Positions 44,239-54,120 of a stretch of 63,490 nucleotides of DNA are shown here, one piece after another (position 1 is the first letter of the stretch; the number at the start of each line of letters is the position of its first letter). This DNA comes from Phycisphaerales bacterium (GTDB lineage Bacteria > Planctomycetota > Phycisphaerae > UBA1845 > Fen-1342): assembly GCA_003162245.1 (NCBI GenBank), contig PMMM01000263.1, positions 9,821-73,310 on the forward strand, written 5' to 3'. The notes beneath the pieces were generated by a model, which was not told the DNA's origin, ran no database searches, and worked only from the letters and a program-made list of their open reading frames with translations. The position numbers and the translations under genes were made by a program.

Positions 44239-44295
44239 GCGTGGTAGGAACACGATAAGCCGGGGGCAGGACGGCTGCATAAGGAATTGCGTGTC

Positions 44296-45765
44296 ATGAA
44301 GCGCGCACTGAGCATCCTGGCGTTGGGGGCGATAGCCATGCTGGCGGCGGGAGCACTTTCGGGCGCGGAGCCGCCGAAGACGCCCGCAGCGCAGGACAAG
44401 GCGGAGGCCAAGGCGGAGAACAAGGGCCGCTGCCGGGTTTACTACTTCCGCAAGGGCAGCGTCGAGTCCACGGAGGGAGAAGTAACGCAATTCCCCGACG
44501 GCTCCTGCGTAGTCGATAAGGGCAAAGGAATAACAATCAGATTCACCAAGGGCGAGATTAAGACGATCACGCCGTTGAATGACAACAAGCCGGCGGCGAC
44601 GCCGGCGTCGCCCGGCGAGTCGCCGGGCCCCGAATCGACGTTGCGCCGGCCGATCTCAGACGCGGAGATTGAGGAGCTTCTCAAGGACATTGTCGCCAAG
44701 GTGGACGAATCGGTCGTCGGCGTGAAGCTGGAGGATCTGGAAGCGCCGCTCACGCTGGACGTGGAGTCCGTCAAGGACATGTTCGCGAAAGCCGGGCTGA
44801 CCTGGAAGGAAGGGGTCCCGCCCGACAAACAGGAAAACCTGCTGATCAAGCCGCACTTCGTGATGGTCTACACGTCGCCGGCGAAGGCGGCCCGGCAGCT
44901 CGGCGCCCGGCTCGAATCCGTGTGGACGTGGAATGTGCGCTTTCTGCGCATGCTGCGTATTCCGGCCCGCCGGCCGCCGTCCAAGCTCGAGATCTTCTAC
45001 TTTGGGACGCACAGCGAGTTTCAGTCTTACTCGATGAGGACGGGGGGCCCGGTCGAGATGGGCGTGCTGGGGTACTACCGGTCCGACATCAACCGATCAC
45101 ACTTCTTCGAGATGGAGACGTGGCCGCCTGCCGCCCAGAGACTCGAGGCCGCCAAACACGCGCCGGCCGACCAGGCGGCGCAGGAGCGGAACAAAGTGGC
45201 GCGCTGGGTGGAGTTTCAGAATCTGGAGGTGATCCAGCACGAAACCGGCCACCACATTCACTTCAACGTCGGCCTCTTCCCACGGAACGCCCACGAGCGC
45301 GAGAGCAGCGTGCCGACCTGGTTGATCGAAGGCACGACCATGATGTTCGAGTTCCCGCCGACCCAGGCGGGGGCCAGCCTCGGCGTCCTGAACCACGGAC
45401 GCCTCGACCAGGTACGCAAGTTCTGGGGACCGCATCCGTTGTCGACGGCCGAGTGGAAGCTGTTTCTGATCGACAACAACGTGTGGTACTCGGGCGTGGG
45501 AAGGGGCAACCCGGGCGCCAGTTACCCGCTGGGTTGGGCGATGGTGTACTACCTGTGGAAGGAGCACCGCGACGGGTATGGGAAGTACCTGCAAACGGTC
45601 TTCGGCCGTGAAGAGGACTTCCGCATGACCAACACGGAACGCGAGAAGGAGTTCGAGGACATCTTCGGCGTGGTCAACGACGAGTGGGTCAACAAGTTCT
45701 ACAAATTCCTCGATTCGCTCCAGCTCAAGCCCTCCCTCGTGCCGGAGGACATCTTCGGTCGCTGA
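44296..45765 (+). CDS. Secreted HExxH putative metalloprotease (DUF1570-like), first of a pair
   Basis: The 489-aa product has a signal peptide (cleavage about residue 23). A small N-terminal domain (residues ~45-95) has Cys and charged strands. The C-terminal domain has the zinc motif HETGHH (in VIQHETGHHIHFN) and a downstream WLIEGTTMMFE segment that may provide the third ligand. This arrangement matches the DUF1570-like family common in Planctomycetota, thought to be metallopeptidases. ATG 44296 with AAGGAA upstream is used; TTG 44287 is also open. The next gene is a shorter paralogue beginning 9 bases after the stop. Confidence 0.75.
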   Translation: MKRALSILALGAIAMLAAGALSGAEPPKTPAAQDKAEAKAENKGRCRVYYFRKGSVESTEGEVTQFPDGSCVVDKGKGITIRFTKGEIKTITPLNDNKPAATPASPGESPGPESTLRRPISDAEIEELLKDIVAKVDESVVGVKLEDLEAPLTLDVESVKDMFAKAGLTWKEGVPPDKQENLLIKPHFVMVYTSPAKAARQLGARLESVWTWNVRFLRMLRIPARRPPSKLEIFYFGTHSEFQSYSMRTGGPVEMGVLGYYRSDINRSHFFEMETWPPAAQRLEAAKHAPADQAAQERNKVARWVEFQNLEVIQHETGHHIHFNVGLFPRNAHERESSVPTWLIEGTTMMFEFPPTQAGASLGVLNHGRLDQVRKFWGPHPLSTAEWKLFLIDNNVWYSGVGRGNPGASYPLGWAMVYYLWKEHRDGYGKYLQTVFGREEDFRMTNTEREKEFEDIFGVVNDEWVNKFYKFLDSLQLKPSLVPEDIFGR

Positions 45766-45773
45766 CGGCCCCT

Positions 45774-46841
45774 GTGGTAACCGCTCGTGCACGGTGGATT
45801 GGCCGCCTCGGGGCTTGTCTGCTGGCATGGACTGGCGTCGCCGGCGCGCCGCCGCGCAGCGCGACGCAGCCCGCGACCGCGACCACGGTGCCGACTCAGG
45901 CTGACCGTCGCGACCTCCTGCCGCCGCTCCCGTCCAATCAAGACACCGCCCGGGACATGCTCCAGCTCGCCGGGCCGTCGGCGCAGCTCTTCGAAAACGC
46001 ACACTTCGCGATCGCGTACACCGGACCCACCGACGGCGCCGCGGCCCTGGGCCGGCGTCTCGAAGCACTTTACCAGGCGCACGTCCGGCTCGTCCGCGAG
46101 TGGAATCTGCCCGCGCACCGCCCGCCGTCGAAACTCGAAGTGTGCTTTTTCGCCCGCTACGACGAGTTCAAGTCGCACCTCGACCGCCTTCTGCCCGACA
46201 CGCCGGAAGCGCTGGGATTCTACGATCCAAACTCGAACCGGACGTACCTCTTCGACCTCGCGACGGCGCCGTCGGTCGTGGCCATCCGCGCGGACGTCGC
46301 CCAGACCCGGCCCGCGGCGCGCGACCGGGTCGCGCGGCGCGTGGCCTGGCTGGAGCGCAGCATCATCCAGCACGAAGCCGCGCACCAGGTCGAGTTCAAC
46401 ATCGGGTTGTTCCGCTCCGCCGCTTCGGCCCCGCGCTGGCTCACCGAAGGGCTCGCCACGCTCTTCGAGCTGCCGCTCGATCCCTCCGGCCGGCCGCTCG
46501 AGCCCCTGAACGGTTACCGGCTGTACGAGTTCCGCAAACTCTACGGCGGTGGCGTGGAAACGCTCGGCGACGTGCGACGTTTCCTCGCGGACGACGAAGC
46601 GTGGTCCGGCGGGCGCTCCTATCCGTTGGCGTGGGCGCTGACGCACTATTTGCGGGAAGAGCATCGCGCCTTCCTGGGCGCCCTGCTGCGCGCTGTCGGC
46701 GCCGGTCGCTTTCCCACGTCGGCCGCCGAGCGGGAGCCGATCCTGAGCGAGTGGTTCGGGCCGTTCGACGCACCGTGGGTCGCTCGGTTCTACGAAGCGA
46801 CGATGCGGCTGCCACTGGATGCGTCCACTTTCCCAGGCTGA
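45774..46841 (+). CDS. Secreted HExxH putative metalloprotease (DUF1570-like), second of a pair
   Basis: The 355-aa product is a shorter paralogue of the preceding gene. It shares the body segments FAIAYT, RPPSKLEVCFFARYDEF and SYPLAWALTHYL, the zinc motif HEAAH (IIQHEAAHQVEFN) and WLTEGLATLFE. GTG 45774 gives a clean signal peptide (WIGRLGACLLAWTGVAGA), so it is exported like its neighbour. The N-terminal domain of the first copy is absent. Tandem duplication and probable co-transcription suggest related substrates. The peptidase role is inferred from the motif only. Confidence 0.75.
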   Translation: MVTARARWIGRLGACLLAWTGVAGAPPRSATQPATATTVPTQADRRDLLPPLPSNQDTARDMLQLAGPSAQLFENAHFAIAYTGPTDGAAALGRRLEALYQAHVRLVREWNLPAHRPPSKLEVCFFARYDEFKSHLDRLLPDTPEALGFYDPNSNRTYLFDLATAPSVVAIRADVAQTRPAARDRVARRVAWLERSIIQHEAAHQVEFNIGLFRSAASAPRWLTEGLATLFELPLDPSGRPLEPLNGYRLYEFRKLYGGGVETLGDVRRFLADDEAWSGGRSYPLAWALTHYLREEHRAFLGALLRAVGAGRFPTSAAEREPILSEWFGPFDAPWVARFYEATMRLPLDASTFPG

Positions 46842-47391: not shown

Positions 47392-47419
47392 TTGACATTT
47401 CCGCTCCAAGAGCTAGACT
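47392..47419 (+). promoter_or_regulatory. Promoter of the his operon
   Basis: A perfect -35 TTGACA (47392-47397) and a -10 TAGACT (47414-47419) are 16 bases apart. The predicted transcript start, near 47426, almost coincides with the leader-peptide ATG at 47428, so the leader peptide may be translated from a leaderless message. Confidence 0.6.
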
Positions 47420-47427
47420 GGATAGCA

Positions 47428-47487
47428 ATGAAGATCACACGAGCCAGCTTGCATCATCATCACCACGGAGAACGCGTGGCCGGGTGA
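47428..47487 (+). CDS. hisL: his operon leader peptide with five consecutive His codons
   Basis: A 19-codon frame encodes MKITRASLHHHHHGERVAG with five adjacent His codons (47452-47466), followed by a TGA. It lies about 115 bases upstream of hisG, between a strong promoter and a rho-independent terminator. This arrangement is the hallmark of ribosome-mediated attenuation as in enteric hisL (seven His codons). There is no clear Shine-Dalgarno; the promoter position suggests a leaderless start. The His run and context make chance very unlikely. Confidence 0.85.
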   Translation: MKITRASLHHHHHGERVAG

Positions 47488-47550
47488 TGGTGTAGCTGCC
47501 TCGAACCGTAGACAACCATCGACGCCGGCCTTGGCCGGCGTCGCTTTTTT
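47463..47550 (+). terminator. his attenuator: pause hairpin, antiterminator and terminator
   Basis: The terminator stem is 11 bp, perfect (47520-47530 with 47533-47543), and is followed by six T (47545-47550). The alternative antiterminator pairs 47478-47483 (GGCCGG) with 47525-47530 and 47486-47490 (GATGG) with 47516-47520. A pause hairpin pairs 47463-47467 (CCACG) with 47475-47479 (CGTGG). A ribosome stalled on the His codons would free 47478-47490 to form the antiterminator. One finishing at the TGA (47485-47487) would cover that strand and allow termination. Confidence 0.85.
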
Positions 47551-47601
47551 ATGCCTGGACGCCGCCGGCCGGGGCCCGCCGAAGAACTGAAGGAGCCCCG
47601 G

Positions 47602-48477
47602 ATGTTGACGCGTGCGGCGCTCGCCCCCCTCCGCCTCGCCCTGCCGAAGGGGCGCATGCAGGAAGCGGTCTTTTCTCTGCTGGCCGACGCCGGCATTCAC
47701 CTCCGTTTTGGCCCGCGCGATTATCGGCCCGCGGTCTCGCTGCCCGGGCTGGAGGCGAAGGTCCTCAAGCCGCAGAACATCCTCGAGATGTTGCACATCG
47801 GCTCGCGCGACGTGGGCTTCGCGGGCGCGGACTGGGTCGCGGAGCTCGCCGTCAACGTTGTCGAGCTGCTGGACACCGGCCTCGATCCCGTCACGCTGGT
47901 CGCCGCCGCCCCGGCGGAGATTCTGGTCGACGGCCGGCTGCCGCAGCGTCCGCTCGTCATCGCCTCGGAGTACGAGCGGCTCACGACGGCCTGGATCCGC
48001 ACGGCCGGGCTCGAAGCCCGCTTCGTACGCTCCTACGGCGCCACCGAGGTCTTCCCGCCCGAGGACGCCGACTGCATCGTCGACAACGCCGCCACCGGCT
48101 CCACCCTGCGGGCCAACGGACTGGAGATCGCGGCGGAGCTGATGTCGTCCTCGACGCGCCTGTACGCCAACCCAACGGTGCTGGACGACCCGGCGCGCCG
48201 CGACGCCGTCGCCCAGCTCGTGACCCTGTTGCGGTCCGTCCTCGACGCCCGGCAGCGGGTGATGCTCGAAGTGAACGTGCCGGCGGACCGCCTCGAAGCC
48301 GTCGTCGCCATCCTGCCGTGCATGCGCGAGCCGACGATCGCACCGCTGCACGGCAGCGCGGGATACGCCGTCAAGGCCGCCGTCCCGCGCGACCGCCTGC
48401 CGAGCGTGATCACCGAGCTGAAGGCCCACGGCGGGACCGACGTGGTCGTGACGGCGCCGTCGCAGATCGTGCCGTGA
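47602..48477 (+). CDS. hisG: ATP phosphoribosyltransferase, long form
   Basis: HisG joins ATP and PRPP in the first step of histidine synthesis and is the usual target of feedback inhibition. The 291-aa product is the long type, with a catalytic body (LALPKGRMQEAVFSLL, the PRPP-binding-loop-like VDNAATGSTLRANGL) and a C-terminal ACT-like regulatory domain (residues ~215-291). No HisZ is needed. ATG 47602 has AAGGAG at good spacing, and the open frame to 47551 overlaps the attenuator. It is the first structural gene of the his operon. Confidence 0.96.
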   Translation: MLTRAALAPLRLALPKGRMQEAVFSLLADAGIHLRFGPRDYRPAVSLPGLEAKVLKPQNILEMLHIGSRDVGFAGADWVAELAVNVVELLDTGLDPVTLVAAAPAEILVDGRLPQRPLVIASEYERLTTAWIRTAGLEARFVRSYGATEVFPPEDADCIVDNAATGSTLRANGLEIAAELMSSSTRLYANPTVLDDPARRDAVAQLVTLLRSVLDARQRVMLEVNVPADRLEAVVAILPCMREPTIAPLHGSAGYAVKAAVPRDRLPSVITELKAHGGTDVVVTAPSQIVP

Positions 48478-48497
48478 CGGATGCGGAGATGTGGAGC

Positions 48498-49616
48498 ATG
48501 AAAGAGACGCAGACAATCGCGATCTGGCCGGCACCGGGGGTGGCGGGTGTCGAGGCGTACCGCGTGGCGAAGCCGGATGGCCGCATCGACCTGCACCTGG
48601 ACGGCAACGAGGGCGCCGCCCCGCCGGCGGTGCTCCTCGAACTCATCGCCGAGCTCGGTCCGGAAACGTTACGCCGCTACCCGCGCACGGAGCCGCTGGA
48701 GGCGCTGCTGGCGGCGCGTTTCGGCGTCAGCCCGGGGCAGGTCGTGGTCACGGCCGGCGCAGACGACGCGCTGGACCGCGCCTGTCGCGCGGCGCTGGGG
48801 CCGGGACGCGAGCTCATCTTGCCGGTGCCCACGTTTGAGATGCTGGAGCGCTACCCGCCGCTGGTTGGGGCGGCGTGCGTGCGAATTCCGTGGCCGGCGG
48901 GACCATACCCGACCGCGCAGGTACTCGCATTTGTGTGGTCACGCACCGGCGCCATCGCCGTCGTCTCGCCGAACAACCCGACCGGCGCCGTGGCGACCGC
49001 GCGCGACCTGGAGAAACTGGCCGCGGCGGCCCCGCAGGTGCTGCTGATCGTCGACCTGGCCTATGCCGAGTTCGCCGACGAGGATTTGATGACGCCGACG
49101 CTTCGGCTGCCCAACGCGGTCGCGGTGCGGAGCTGCTCGAAGGCGTGGGGGCTGGCGGGCCTGCGGATCGGCTATGCGATCGGCCCCGAACCGATCATCG
49201 ACTGGCTGCGGGCGGCGGGCAGCCCGTATCCGACTTCCGGCCTGTCACTCGCGCTGGCCGCCCGGCGGTTGGAAACCGGCGTGGCACAGATGGACGCCCT
49301 TGTGCAACGCGTGCGGCAGGAGCGACAGCAGTTGTTCGACGTATTGCAGCGCTGCGGCGCCCGGCCGCTGCCGTCGCAGGCGAATTTCGTGCTCGCCCGC
49401 TTCGCCGACGCCGGGCGCGTCCGCGACGGACTGGCCACGGCGGGCATCGCGGTCCGGCGGTTCCCGCAGCGTCCGGGGCTGGACGACGCGTTGCGCATCA
49501 CCTGCCCGGGCGACGAGCGCGCGTTCGCGCGACTTACCGCGGCAATCGAGCGCGCATACCAGGTCGATCCGAGTGCATTTCGGCCGGATGCCAGTGTTCG
49601 AGAGGAGCGCACATGA
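48498..49616 (+). CDS. hisC: Histidinol-phosphate aminotransferase
   Basis: HisC is a PLP-dependent enzyme converting imidazole-acetol phosphate to histidinol phosphate (step 7). The 372-aa product has the class I aminotransferase motifs VSPNNPTGAV, IVDLAYAEFA and SCSKAWGLAGLRIGYA, which contains the PLP-binding Lys. ATG 48498 has GGAG 9 bases upstream; ATG 48489 is an alternative. Its TGA overlaps the hisB ATG (ATGA), showing coupled translation. Confidence 0.95.
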   Translation: MKETQTIAIWPAPGVAGVEAYRVAKPDGRIDLHLDGNEGAAPPAVLLELIAELGPETLRRYPRTEPLEALLAARFGVSPGQVVVTAGADDALDRACRAALGPGRELILPVPTFEMLERYPPLVGAACVRIPWPAGPYPTAQVLAFVWSRTGAIAVVSPNNPTGAVATARDLEKLAAAAPQVLLIVDLAYAEFADEDLMTPTLRLPNAVAVRSCSKAWGLAGLRIGYAIGPEPIIDWLRAAGSPYPTSGLSLALAARRLETGVAQMDALVQRVRQERQQLFDVLQRCGARPLPSQANFVLARFADAGRVRDGLATAGIAVRRFPQRPGLDDALRITCPGDERAFARLTAAIERAYQVDPSAFRPDASVREERT

Positions 49617-50200
49617 ACGAAGGTGAGGCAGAAATCAAGCGTCAAACGTCCGAGACCGACATCGTGCTGTCGCTGCGGCTCCATGGCGAGGGCCGCGCTG
49701 CGGTGCAGACCGGCCTCGGCTTTCTCGATCACCTGCTGACCGCGCTGACCCGCCACGCCCGCATCGACCTGGAGCTGACCTGCCGCGGCGACCTGCACGT
49801 CGACGATCACCACACCGCCGAGGACTGTGCGTTGGCGCTGGGGACGGCGTTGGACCAGGCGCTGGGCGAGCGGTGCGGAATCGCCCGTTTCGGGTACGCC
49901 TATGCCCCGCTGGACGAGGCCCTGGCCCGCGCGGTCGTGGATCTGTCCGGCCGCCCGTTCGCGGCCATCGAGCTAGGGCTGCGCCGCGAGCGGCTCGGCG
50001 ACCTCGCCTGCGAGAACGTCGGCCACGTGCTATCGTCGCTCGCGACCGCGGCCCGCTGCGCTCTGCACGTGGATGTGCTGCGCGGCGACAACGACCACCA
50101 TCGCGCTGAGGCGGGGTTCAAGGCGGTCGCGCTCGCGCTCCGCATGGCCATCGCCCGCGACGGCTCCGACCAGATTCCGAGCACGAAAGGCGTGCTGTGA
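49613..50200 (+). CDS. hisB: Imidazoleglycerol-phosphate dehydratase
   Basis: HisB dehydrates imidazoleglycerol phosphate (step 6). The 195-aa protein is monofunctional: it has the metal-binding histidine motifs GFLDHLLTALTRHA, DDHHTAEDCALALG and ENVGHVLSSLATAA, and NDHHRAEAGFKAVA near the C-terminus. It lacks the phosphatase domain of the enteric HisB fusion, so histidinol-phosphate phosphatase must come from elsewhere. ATG 49613 overlaps the end of hisC. The TGA overlaps the first base of the hisH ATG. Confidence 0.97.
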   Translation: MNEGEAEIKRQTSETDIVLSLRLHGEGRAAVQTGLGFLDHLLTALTRHARIDLELTCRGDLHVDDHHTAEDCALALGTALDQALGERCGIARFGYAYAPLDEALARAVVDLSGRPFAAIELGLRRERLGDLACENVGHVLSSLATAARCALHVDVLRGDNDHHRAEAGFKAVALALRMAIARDGSDQIPSTKGVL

Positions 50201-50835
50201 TGTCCGCCGATGAGGTCCTGATCGTGCGCACCGGGACGGCCAACCTGGCGTCCGTTTGTGCCGGCCTGCGCCGCGCGGGCGCTGCGCCGCGCCTCACCGA
50301 GAGCCCGAACGATGTGGCCGCCGCGGAGCGCGTCGTACTGCCCGGCGTCGGAGCCTTCGGGGCTGCGATGGCGCGGTTGACGGACAAGGGTCTCGATCGC
50401 GTGCTGACGGAGCGCATCGCCGCCGGCCGGCCGACGCTCGCCGTCTGCCTGGGCCTGCAACTCCTGTGTGACGAAAGCGAGGAGACGCCGGGCGTTCGCG
50501 GACTTGGGCTGGTCGCCGGTCGCATTACGCGCTTCTCGACGGCGGTGCGCGTTCCCCAGTTAGGCTGGAATCTCGTTGCGGCCGGCGACGGCGCGCCTCT
50601 GCTGCACGACCCCGGCCACGCGTATTTCGCGAACTCGTACAAGCTGGACGCAGCCCCCACGGGATGGACCGCGGCGTACGCGGACCACGGCGGGCGCTTC
50701 GTCGCGGCGCTGGAGCGCGGCAACGTGCTCGTGTGCCAGTTCCACCCCGAGTTGTCGGGAGCGTGGGGGCTGGAATTGCTGCGGCGTTGGCTGGGCGCGA
50801 CCCAGCCGCGGCGCACGGGAGGTGCCGCGTGCTAA
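50200..50835 (+). CDS. hisH: Imidazole glycerol phosphate synthase glutaminase subunit
   Basis: HisH supplies ammonia from glutamine to HisF (step 5). The ~211-aa class I glutaminase has the nucleophile in [11 protein letters not shown], the oxyanion-side PGVGAFG motif, and the catalytic His/Glu in QFHPELSG. The start at ATG 50200 is one base into the hisB stop; GTG 50197 is equivalent by one residue. It overlaps the start of hisF by 7 bases, fitting a coupled HisH-HisF pair. Confidence 0.95.
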
Positions 50836-51584
50836 CGGTCCGCATCATTCCATGCCTCGACGTGCGCGACGGACGCGTGGTGAAGGGCGTGCGTTTCTCC
50901 GGGCTGCGCGACGCCGGCTCGCCGCCCGAGCGGGCCGCTGCCTACGGAGCGCAGGGGGCCGACGAGCTCGTCCTGCTGGACGTATCCGCGACACCGGAGG
51001 GGCGAGCGCACCAGACCGAGACCACCCGCCGCGTGCGGGAGCAGCTTTCGATTCCGCTCACGGTCGGCGGCGGCGTGCGAACGCTCGATGACGCCCGCGC
51101 CTTGCTCGAAGCAGGTGCCGACAAGGTGGCCGTGAACACCGCGGCGGTGCGCACTCCCGATTTGATCGACCGGCTCGCGACGGAGTTCGGCTGCCAATGC
51201 ACAATCTTGGCGCTGGACGCGGCCCGCACGCCCGCGGGCAATTGGGAGGTCGTCGTACTCTCCGGGCGCGAGCGGACCGGGCGCGACGCGATCGCGTGGG
51301 CCGGCGAGGCGACGCGCCGCGGGGCCGGCGAAATCCTGCTCACGAGTTGGGACCGCGACGGCACCCGCGCCGGGTACGACGTGGACCTGATCGCCGCCGT
51401 CGCGGGCGCCGTCCGTGTGCCGGTGATCGCGTCGGGCGGGGCCGCGGGGCCGGAGCATCTGCTGGCTGCGCTCCGGGCCGGTGCAGACGCCGTTCTGGCC
51501 GCCTCGATCTTCCACGACCGCGACATGACCGTGGGGGCCGTGAAGGACTACCTCGCCGAACGCGGCATCCAGGTGCGCCGATGA
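50829..51584 (+). CDS. hisF: Imidazole glycerol phosphate synthase cyclase subunit
   Basis: HisF closes the imidazole ring and releases AICAR, using ammonia from HisH. The 251-aa (beta/alpha)8 barrel has the catalytic Asp in [13 protein letters not shown], the GGGVRTL and GADKVAVNT phosphate-binding segments, and the second catalytic Asp in [14 protein letters not shown]. The start is GTG 50829, inside the end of hisH. The stop overlaps the ATG of the fused hisA-I-E gene. Confidence 0.97.
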
Positions 51585-52855
51585 TTGTGCCTTCGATTGA
51601 TCTGATGCAGGGCCAGGCCGTCCAGCTCGTCGGCGGTCGCGAGAAAGTCCTCGACGCCGGCGATCCGCGGCCCATCGCCGAGCAGTTCCGGCTGGCGGGC
51701 GAAATCGCGGTCGTGGACCTGGACGCCGCCCTCGGCCGCGGCTCGAACGCCGGGCTGATTCGCGAACTGCTGCGGATCGCGCCCTGTCGCGTGGGCGGCG
51801 GGATTCGCGCCGCGGAAGCGGCCCGGGCCTGGCTCGACGCGGGCGCCACGCAGGTCGTGCTGGGCACGGCGGCGGTACGCGAGGTGCTCGCCGCGCTGCC
51901 GCGCGAGCGTGTGGTCGCCGCGCTGGACGCGGTCGAGGGCGAGGTCGTCGTCGACGGCTGGCGGACGCGCACCGGCCGCGACGTCTTCGACGCCATGCAG
52001 GACCTCCGCGACCTCGTCGACGGCTTCCTCGTCACGTTCGTCGAGCGCGAGGGCCGGCTGCAAGGCAGCGACCTCGCGCGTGCCGAGAAGCTGCGCGCCG
52101 CCGCCGGTGACGTGCGGCTCACCGTCGCGGGCGGCATCGCGACCGTCGACGAAGTGGCCGCGCTCGACCGCCTGGGCATCGACGCGCAGGTCGGCATGGC
52201 GTTGTACACCGGCCGGCTGGACCTCGCGGACGCCATCGCCGCCCCGCTCACCTCGGACCGCCCCGACGGACTGTGGCCGACGGTCGTCGCCGACGAACGC
52301 GGCGCCGCGCTCGGACTGGCATGGTCGAACCGCGAAAGCCTGCGCGCCGCCGTACGCGAGCGCGCGGGCGTTTACCACTCGCGCACCCGCGGCCTGTGGC
52401 ACAAAGGCGCCACGTCCGGTGCAACGCAGGAGCTTCTCCGAATCGATCTGGATTGCGACCGCGACGCGCTGCGCTTCACCGTCCGCCAGCACGGCTCGGG
52501 CTTCTGCCACCGCGGTACGCGTACCTGTTGGGGCGACATGGGCGGGCTCGGAACGCTCGCCCGGCGGCTGGAGGAGCGGCGGCGTGCCGCCCCGGACGGC
52601 TCCTACACGCGCCGTCTGCTCGACGATCCCGTCCTGCTCCGCAGCAAGCTGGTTGAGGAAGCCCGCGAGCTGGCGCTGGCCGGCACACACGACGAGGTGG
52701 TCGGCGAAGCCGCCGACGTGCTGTACTTCACCTTGGCCGCGCTCACGAAAGCCGGCGTGCCGCTCGAGGAGGTCGAGGCCGAACTCGACCGGCGCAGTCT
52801 GCGCGTGACACGCCGCCGCGGCGACGCGAAGCCCGCTGAGGAGTCCTCGTCATGA
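51581..52855 (+). CDS. hisA-hisIE: HisA-HisI-HisE trifunctional fusion
   Basis: One 424-aa protein carries three histidine enzymes. Residues 1-~225 are HisA (ProFAR isomerase; catalytic D7 in PSIDLMQG and D125 in VVVDGW). Residues ~230-325 are HisI (PR-AMP cyclohydrolase; D291/D293/D295 in DCDRDA and Cys292/309/316 for zinc). Residues ~325-405 are HisE (PR-ATP pyrophosphatase; EEARE and GEAADVLYF acidic motifs). Together they would perform steps 2, 3 and 4. HisI-HisE fusions are common; HisA joined to both is one I do not recall as standard. All three sets of key residues are intact. The HisA-HisI junction is short (residues ~222-231). Both gene ends overlap neighbours by 4 bases. Confidence 0.93.
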
Positions 52856-54120
52856 CGTCACTTCGCCTGCGCCGGCTTCGTTCCGACGACGTACGCCCGC
52901 TGGGCTCGCGCGCGAGCGACGAGACCACGCTGGCACAAGCGGCCGAAATCGTCCGCGACGTGCAACAGGGGGGAGAACCCGCGCTGCGCGCTCACGCCGA
53001 GCGGCTCGGAGACCTGCGATCCGGAGAGCGGCTGACGTACACGGCCGGCGACCTGGCGGCCGCGCTCGACGCCGTGCCCGGTGCCACCCGCGCGCTGCTC
53101 GAACGCACGGCCGATCGCATTCGCACGTTCGCCGAGGCCCAGCGGCGCTGCTTGTCCGACCTCACGGTGCCGGTTCCGGGCGGCCTGGCCGGTCACACGG
53201 TGGCGCCGGTCGAAACCGCCGGCTGCTACGCCCCGGGCGGGCGCTATCCGCTGCCATCGTCCGTGCTGATGACGGCCGTGACCGCCCGTGTCGCCGGTGT
53301 GCCGCAGGTCATCGTCGCTTCGCCGCGACCGGCGCCCGTGACGCTCGCGGCGGCGGCCGTGGCGCGCGCGGACCTGCTGCTGGCGGCCGGCGGGGCGCAG
53401 GCGATCGCGGCGCTGGCATACGGAGCAGGTCCGGTCCCCGCGTGCGACATCGTGGTCGGCCCCGGCAACCGCTGGGTTACCGCCGCCAAGCAGATCGTGG
53501 CTCGGACGGTGGGGACTGACATGCTGGCCGGCCCGTCGGAACTGCTCGTGCTGGCCGACGCTTCGGCCGATCCGGCGTTGGTCGCGGCCGATCTGCTGGC
53601 ACAGGCCGAGCACGATCCGGACGCCCTGCCGGTACTCGTTACGACCGCGGACGTGCTCATCCCGGCCATCGAGGACGAGCTGGCGCGGCAACTAGCCGAT
53701 CTACCGACCGCCGACATTGCGCGGGCGGCGCTGGCGCACGGTTTCGTCGTACTCGCGGCCGATAGGGAGGAAGCGGTCGCGGTGTGCAACCGTCTGGCGC
53801 CCGAGCACCTGGCCCTGCACGTCAAAAACCCCGCGACGTGGAAGCCCGCGTTGCGGCACTACGGGGCGCTGTTCGAGGGCGCCCGCAGCGCCGAGGTGCT
53901 CGGCGACTACGGCATCGGCCCAAACCACGTGCTGCCGACCGGCGGCACGGCCCGCTTCCGCGGCGGGCTCTCGGTACTCACGTTCCTGCGCGTCCGCACG
54001 TGGTTGCGGATCGGGGACGGGCCGGACGTGGAAGCCGTCGCGCGCGACGCCGCTGACCTGGCCCGCCTGGAAGGACTGGAAGCCCACGCCCGCTCGGCCG
54101 AGCGACGGTGTACTTCTTGA
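52852..54120 (+). CDS. hisD: Histidinol dehydrogenase
   Basis: HisD performs the last two oxidations to histidine with NAD and zinc. The 422-aa product has the family segments PVETAGCYAPGGRYPLPS, VVGPGNRWVTAAK, AGPSE, AQAEHDPDA, RLAPEHLALH and GPNHVLPTGGTARFRGG. ATG 52852 overlaps the fusion gene stop and has GAGGAG upstream. It ends the operon, 18 bases from the convergent AsmA-like gene. With hisG-C-B-H-F and the A-I-E fusion, every step except histidinol-phosphatase is encoded here. Confidence 0.97.
   Translation: MTSLRLRRLRSDDVRPLGSRASDETTLAQAAEIVRDVQQGGEPALRAHAERLGDLRSGERLTYTAGDLAAALDAVPGATRALLERTADRIRTFAEAQRRCLSDLTVPVPGGLAGHTVAPVETAGCYAPGGRYPLPSSVLMTAVTARVAGVPQVIVASPRPAPVTLAAAAVARADLLLAAGGAQAIAALAYGAGPVPACDIVVGPGNRWVTAAKQIVARTVGTDMLAGPSELLVLADASADPALVAADLLAQAEHDPDALPVLVTTADVLIPAIEDELARQLADLPTADIARAALAHGFVVLAADREEAVAVCNRLAPEHLALHVKNPATWKPALRHYGALFEGARSAEVLGDYGIGPNHVLPTGGTARFRGGLSVLTFLRVRTWLRIGDGPDVEAVARDAADLARLEGLEAHARSAERRCTS

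Follow-up and report, generated by a model that had tools for sequence, protein, structure and literature searches.

Positions 47392-47601 of the DNA stretch analysed here very probably constitute a ribosome-mediated transcription attenuator, which would sense charged tRNA-His through an apparently leaderless leader peptide and so control the hisGCBHF-(A-IE)-D operon in its entirety. The stretch (the window) comprises 63,490 nt of the forward strand of contig PMMM01000263.1, from a Phycisphaerae MAG (Planctomycetota; GCA_003162245.1). The region unites the classical parts of an attenuator: leader codons for the operon's own amino acid before hisG, an intrinsic terminator and, in predicted folds, a mutually exclusive antiterminator in the right phase. 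The mechanism is classical; what appears new is the range of lineages, an RNA family without an Rfam match, and the conserved, apparently leaderless leader.

The leader region of the his operon

The window contains a complete his operon. Its genes run in one direction, nearly touch each other and, as judged by Pfam domain matches, cover the histidine pathway from hisG to hisD. The features of the leader region and the operon are as follows:

47392-47419, + strand: sigma-70-like promoter by sequence match (-35 TTGACA, 47392-47397; 16-nt spacer; -10 TAGACT, 47414-47419)
47428-47487, + strand: leader ORF MKITRASLHHHHHGERVAG, 19 codons, apparently leaderless (ATG 47428-47430, TGA 47485-47487); layout shared in 44 loci
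47452-47466, + strand: five consecutive His codons by direct reading, the presumed regulatory codons and, in predicted folds, segment 1 of the 1:2 hairpin
47478-47490, + strand: segment 2, GGCCGGGTGATGG, which contains the TGA and pairs with the His codons (1:2) or with segment 3 in predicted folds and the relatives' alignment
47516-47530, + strand: segment 3, CCATCGACGCCGGCC, antiterminator partner and 5' arm of the terminator (91.9% of cells paired, 19 relatives)
47520-47550, + strand: intrinsic terminator (10-bp stem with 4-nt loop, 47520-47543, then C and T6 at 47545-47550)
47571-47601, + strand: GC-rich hairpin that encloses the hisG Shine-Dalgarno sequence (CCGGGGC pairing with GCCCCGG), from complementarity compared with shuffles
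47590-47595, + strand: hisG Shine-Dalgarno sequence AAGGAG, ahead of the ATG at 47602
47602-48477, + strand: hisG, ATP phosphoribosyltransferase (PF01634, HisG; PF08029, HisG_C), ATG start at 47602
48492-49616, + strand: hisC-like aminotransferase (PF00155)
49613-50200, + strand: hisB, imidazoleglycerol-phosphate dehydratase (PF00475)
50197-50835, + strand: hisH, glutamine amidotransferase (PF00117)
50832-51584, + strand: hisF (PF00977)
51581-52855, + strand: hisA-hisIE fusion in a single frame, HisA + PRA-CH + PRA-PH (PF00977, PF01502, PF01503)
52852-54120, + strand: hisD (PF00815)

An earlier sequence-only reading had placed a 19-codon frame with five His codons between a TTGACA/TAGACT promoter and a terminator just 5' of hisG, and the coordinates of the frame and the promoter were confirmed. 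No other promoter-like site was found on either strand within 1.2 kb, where 0.0 are expected; its -10 hexamer has only 4/6 matches. The 4.76-Mb genome has just three runs of five His codons, and the other two lie inside longer frames that do not share this layout. The terminator had been described as an 11-bp stem followed by six T residues. Its site and the T6 stand, but the stem was shortened to 10 bp, as 11 bp leaves a loop of only 2 nt.

The leader stop overlaps the ATG of a two-codon frame (47485-47495, TGATGGTGTAG), an arrangement that recurs in several relatives. The overlapping ATG probably arises as a side effect of the pairing between this segment and the His codons; a ribosome reinitiating there, if present, would keep segment 2 covered. 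Directly upstream of the operon are two adjacent DUF1570 (PF07607) frames with slightly overlapping coordinates (44287-45765 and 45684-46841). About 30 related loci in several phyla also carry the hisA-hisIE fusion, full length and in a single frame.

Alternative folds and the position of the ribosome

The folding of RNA 47420-47560, a check proposed in the sequence-only reading, revealed the exclusive structures that it had predicted, at a stability far above that of shuffled sequences (-60.1 compared with -43.7 kcal/mol, z -4.3). The antiterminator between 47478-47490 and 47516-47530 formed in the folds, with 11 pairs in the segments as originally written and 14 in the minimum-energy structure, and the leader TGA lies inside the antiterminator strand, as had been claimed. 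When the antiterminator duplex was compared with shuffled segment 2, p was ≤0.05 in only 24/44 loci; with so high a GC content, base composition by itself is enough for strong pairing.

We modelled the switch by leaving free the RNA available at each ribosome position, assuming that the ribosome covers 12 nt past the first A-site base. With the ribosome at any codon from His2 to His5, the predicted antiterminator has an energy of -27.6 kcal/mol and forms before the 3' arm of the terminator exists (with the ribosome at His1, the value is -28.6 kcal/mol in all). One codon past the His run the predicted energy falls to -20.1 kcal/mol, and once the stop codon occupies the A site the antiterminator is gone (-4.3 kcal/mol) and the terminator alone is predicted to form. 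In the fold without a ribosome, the His codons and segment 2 are taken up in a long hairpin (-36.4 kcal/mol), and the terminator forms. At equilibrium the full-length RNA favours the terminator even with a stalled ribosome (-31.9 compared with -27.6 kcal/mol), and we therefore infer that the switch must act through the order of folding. Such a dependence is usual for attenuators.

The proposed mechanism follows textbook attenuator logic, in which stalling leads to the antiterminator and arrival at the stop codon to the terminator. RNA polymerase would start at the leader ATG or no more than about 2 nt away (about 47425-47428), and the message that encodes the leader would be leaderless. Under histidine shortage, the ribosome would stall at one of the five His codons and cover segment 1, leaving segment 2 free to pair with segment 3 before the 3' arm of the terminator is made, so that the operon would be transcribed. 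When histidine is plentiful, the ribosome would reach the UGA and cover segment 2; segments 3 and 4 would then form the terminator, and transcription would end near 47550. If there is no translation, the His codons would pair with segment 2 and the terminator would form as well. An attenuator of this kind implies transcription-translation coupling in these bacteria.

A more elaborate scheme would have the read-through RNA also hide and free the hisG Shine-Dalgarno sequence in step with the switch (1:2/3:4/5:6 versus 2:3/4:5). Complementarity between the post-terminator region and the Shine-Dalgarno sequence does exceed that of shuffles across 38 attenuator loci (Stouffer z -4.7), whereas 35 control hisG loci without an attenuator show no excess (0.6), and pairing with the 3' arm of the terminator is also above shuffles (mean z -1.33), a statistic that repeated GGCC motifs could inflate. 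In the window, however, the Shine-Dalgarno hairpin is predicted to form equally in the on and off states, as the two pairings use different bases, and we regard such a two-level switch as quite improbable. The six-segment relay was not supported in the window, and the hairpin, present in the predicted folds whichever way the switch is set, was therefore left out of the proposed mechanism. The stem sequences of this hairpin differ among relatives (L003, L004, L126, L133).

Conservation among relatives and HisG phylogeny

The sequence-only reading had suggested a search for the same leader upstream of hisG in related genomes, and had stated that relatives with an intact his operon but no leader would speak against it. 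HisG is present in 7/27 genomes of the window's family, and all seven carry a short His-run ORF and a terminator before hisG, an outcome that favours the reading within this family. The wider search, which drew on the family genomes, named relatives in a public collection and 20 further loci from the class Phycisphaerae, yielded 44 distinct loci from Planctomycetota, Myxococcota, Spirochaetota, Acidobacteriota, Armatimonadota and Pseudomonadota. No such leader was found in 30 members of the class that have another, higher-scoring HisG type, which is common there. Amino-acid biosynthesis appears patchy here: a HisG match is absent from the other 20 family genomes, and a prephenate dehydratase match is absent from the window's genome despite 97% completeness.

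The competing helices are conserved as well. In 19 aligned loci, the terminator pairs are formed in 96.3% of cells (slid control, at most 66%), with two-sided changes at three pairs; the corresponding values are 92% for the antiterminator (at most 56%) and 79% for the 1:2 hairpin (at most 61%). Because the sequence of the arms is itself conserved, they covary only modestly: the score of the antiterminator was reached by 31/500 shuffles and that of the 1:2 hairpin by 106/500. In one locus (L003), all three competing strands are altered together (GGTCGG/CCGACC/GGTCGG). In four Spirochaetota loci (L093, L100, L103, L104) the tail of the leader peptide is conserved (HLHHHGHAYAVAMIVIP) well beyond the His codons, presumably owing to the part that its bases play in the competing helices.

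The family genomes were searched with a covariance model of the leader, whose top seven matches were the seven hisG leaders. In 294 genomes of the window's phylum the model R1 gave 12 matches at E ≤ 1e-4, of which 11 precede hisG and come with a His-rich leader (six outside the previously collected loci); the twelfth (L243) resembles an ordinary gene-end terminator. These results bear on whether the arrangement could be a chance assembly, in which the terminator of an upstream unit happens to lie beside an unrelated short ORF with a His run. About 0.7 terminator-like sites per 1.2 kb are expected by chance in this GC-rich genome. Against this stand the recurrence of the same arrangement in the same position at 44 loci, among them those of all the family genomes that have hisG, the conserved alternative pairings, the position of 11 of the 12 phylum-wide matches before hisG, and the finding that even distant relatives keep the entire arrangement ahead of hisG. 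A chance origin is thus extremely improbable, and ribosome-mediated his attenuation, the central claim of the sequence-only reading, is supported both by the phasing of the elements and by their conservation before hisG.

A 127-row HisG tree places every attenuator locus inside one 93-row clade (SH-aLRT 99), in which Planctomycetota, Myxococcota, Spirochaetota, Acidobacteriota, Armatimonadota and Pseudomonadota are intermingled; other Phycisphaerae have a distant HisG type without the attenuator. The notion of an attenuator peculiar to Planctomycetota was corrected accordingly: the element accompanies a single HisG clade in at least six phyla. By the criteria used, about half of the clade has no such leader; it must therefore have been gained or lost often, or been missed. 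The presence of the attenuator requires 19 changes on the tree, only three of which are forced by well-supported branches. The his operon of this group looks to have spread horizontally, the attenuator often going with it. Many deep branches are weakly supported, and a single origin of the attenuator is therefore neither shown nor excluded.

Leaderless initiation, precedents and aromatic-pathway leaders

The leader ATG in the window follows the -10 box by 8 nt, which puts the predicted transcription start 0-3 nt before the ATG, and no Shine-Dalgarno sequence precedes it. An in-frame ATG or GTG lies 5-10 nt after the -10 box in 38/44 loci from six phyla. A strong Shine-Dalgarno sequence (-6 kcal/mol or better) was found at 3/44 leaders and was absent from the other 41, compared with 39/44 hisG starts of the same loci, a figure somewhat favoured by choosing the best start there. 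The promoter geometry and the scarcity of Shine-Dalgarno sequences give comparative support to the leaderless start that the sequence-only reading had raised as a possibility, and suggest that the leader peptides are translated without a Shine-Dalgarno sequence, from the first base of the message. Alternatively, the attenuator could be real but its leader translated from a longer transcript begun upstream. The promoter calls are sequence matches, and the leaders of a few relatives (L057, L130) lie 40-50 nt or more from the predicted -10 box, that of L057 with AGGA before its start. This explanation has to contend with the spacing and the Shine-Dalgarno counts given above, and with the lack of any other promoter-like site within 1.2 kb; we consider it unlikely. 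Fairly high frequencies of leaderless genes have been predicted for delta-Proteobacteria and Acidobacteria (PMC3160421). Leaderless translation, if true, would load the ribosome as the nascent RNA emerges, a natural means of staying close behind the polymerase.

An Rfam search of the window gave no match to His_leader (RF00514) even at E 10, nor was there one in 14 relatives, and no T-box or other known riboswitch was matched in the window. The enterobacterial hisL leader (RF00514) shares the run of His codons in a short leader, the alternative hairpins and the terminator before hisG, but the window's leader lacks a Shine-Dalgarno sequence, differs in sequence and occurs in other phyla. His-rich leaders with a terminator and an antiterminator are also described outside Proteobacteria, in Firmicutes (PMC9413887; bacilli hisS/hisZ, PMC2965389), but the excerpts of these papers mention neither the leaderless geometry nor a GGCCGG/CCGGCC core. 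Leader ORFs that lie at or near the RNA 5' end or are devoid of a ribosome-binding site also take part in ribosome-mediated attenuation at Sinorhizobium meliloti trpL (PMC7298713) and Corynebacterium glutamicum ilvBNC (Morbach et al. 2000, cited in PMC4046766). Precedents for the leaderless-leader principle itself therefore exist; the two cases concern another amino acid and operon, whereas the layout in the window is conserved upstream of hisG over many phyla.

In the open-licence literature searched, accounts of leader-peptide attenuators cover Proteobacteria, Actinobacteria and some Firmicutes; for His leaders the list comprises Proteobacteria and some Firmicutes (PMC9413887, PMC2965389, PMC1262725). 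A search of that literature found nothing that ties Planctomycetes to leader-peptide attenuation, and no description of a conserved leaderless start of a his attenuator across phyla. Some subscription papers predict attenuators in further phyla, and the claim to a first description, which comes from the open-licence search, is held loosely. The present analysis adds Planctomycetota, along with several other phyla, to the lineages with a complete attenuator, and supplies a covariance model that finds it.

A broader and more speculative reading, which we put forward tentatively and rate below an even chance, is that one leaderless-attenuator RNA family spread together with a single HisG/his-operon lineage across at least six phyla, and that in Phycisphaerae it was also re-tuned, by a change of regulatory codons, to Phe and Tyr/Trp genes (pheA, DAHP synthase), leaderless initiation being part of the sensing design. 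The his covariance model also matched three aromatic-pathway leaders in the window's family:

L145 (G016:C48): MRNVSTYTRHYRFYSWYYAWSVAG, before DAHP synthase
L148 (G001:C127), from the window's own genus: MNMLLRAFCYYFNRFTNAVGPAAV, before pheA; the start again closely follows the -10 box
L146 (G014:C3): MWNLLAADRRYFFSSFRAPRGRPVRA, before pheA

The names pheA and DAHP synthase rest on Pfam matches at the same places. All three leader peptides are rich in Tyr, Trp or Phe and are followed by a similar terminator; going by these sequences, they are putative codon-switched his attenuators or close analogues. Scans before pheA, DAHP synthase and trpE in the 27 family genomes returned these three aromatic leaders only, none of them before trpE, and attenuation of these genes therefore looks sporadic.
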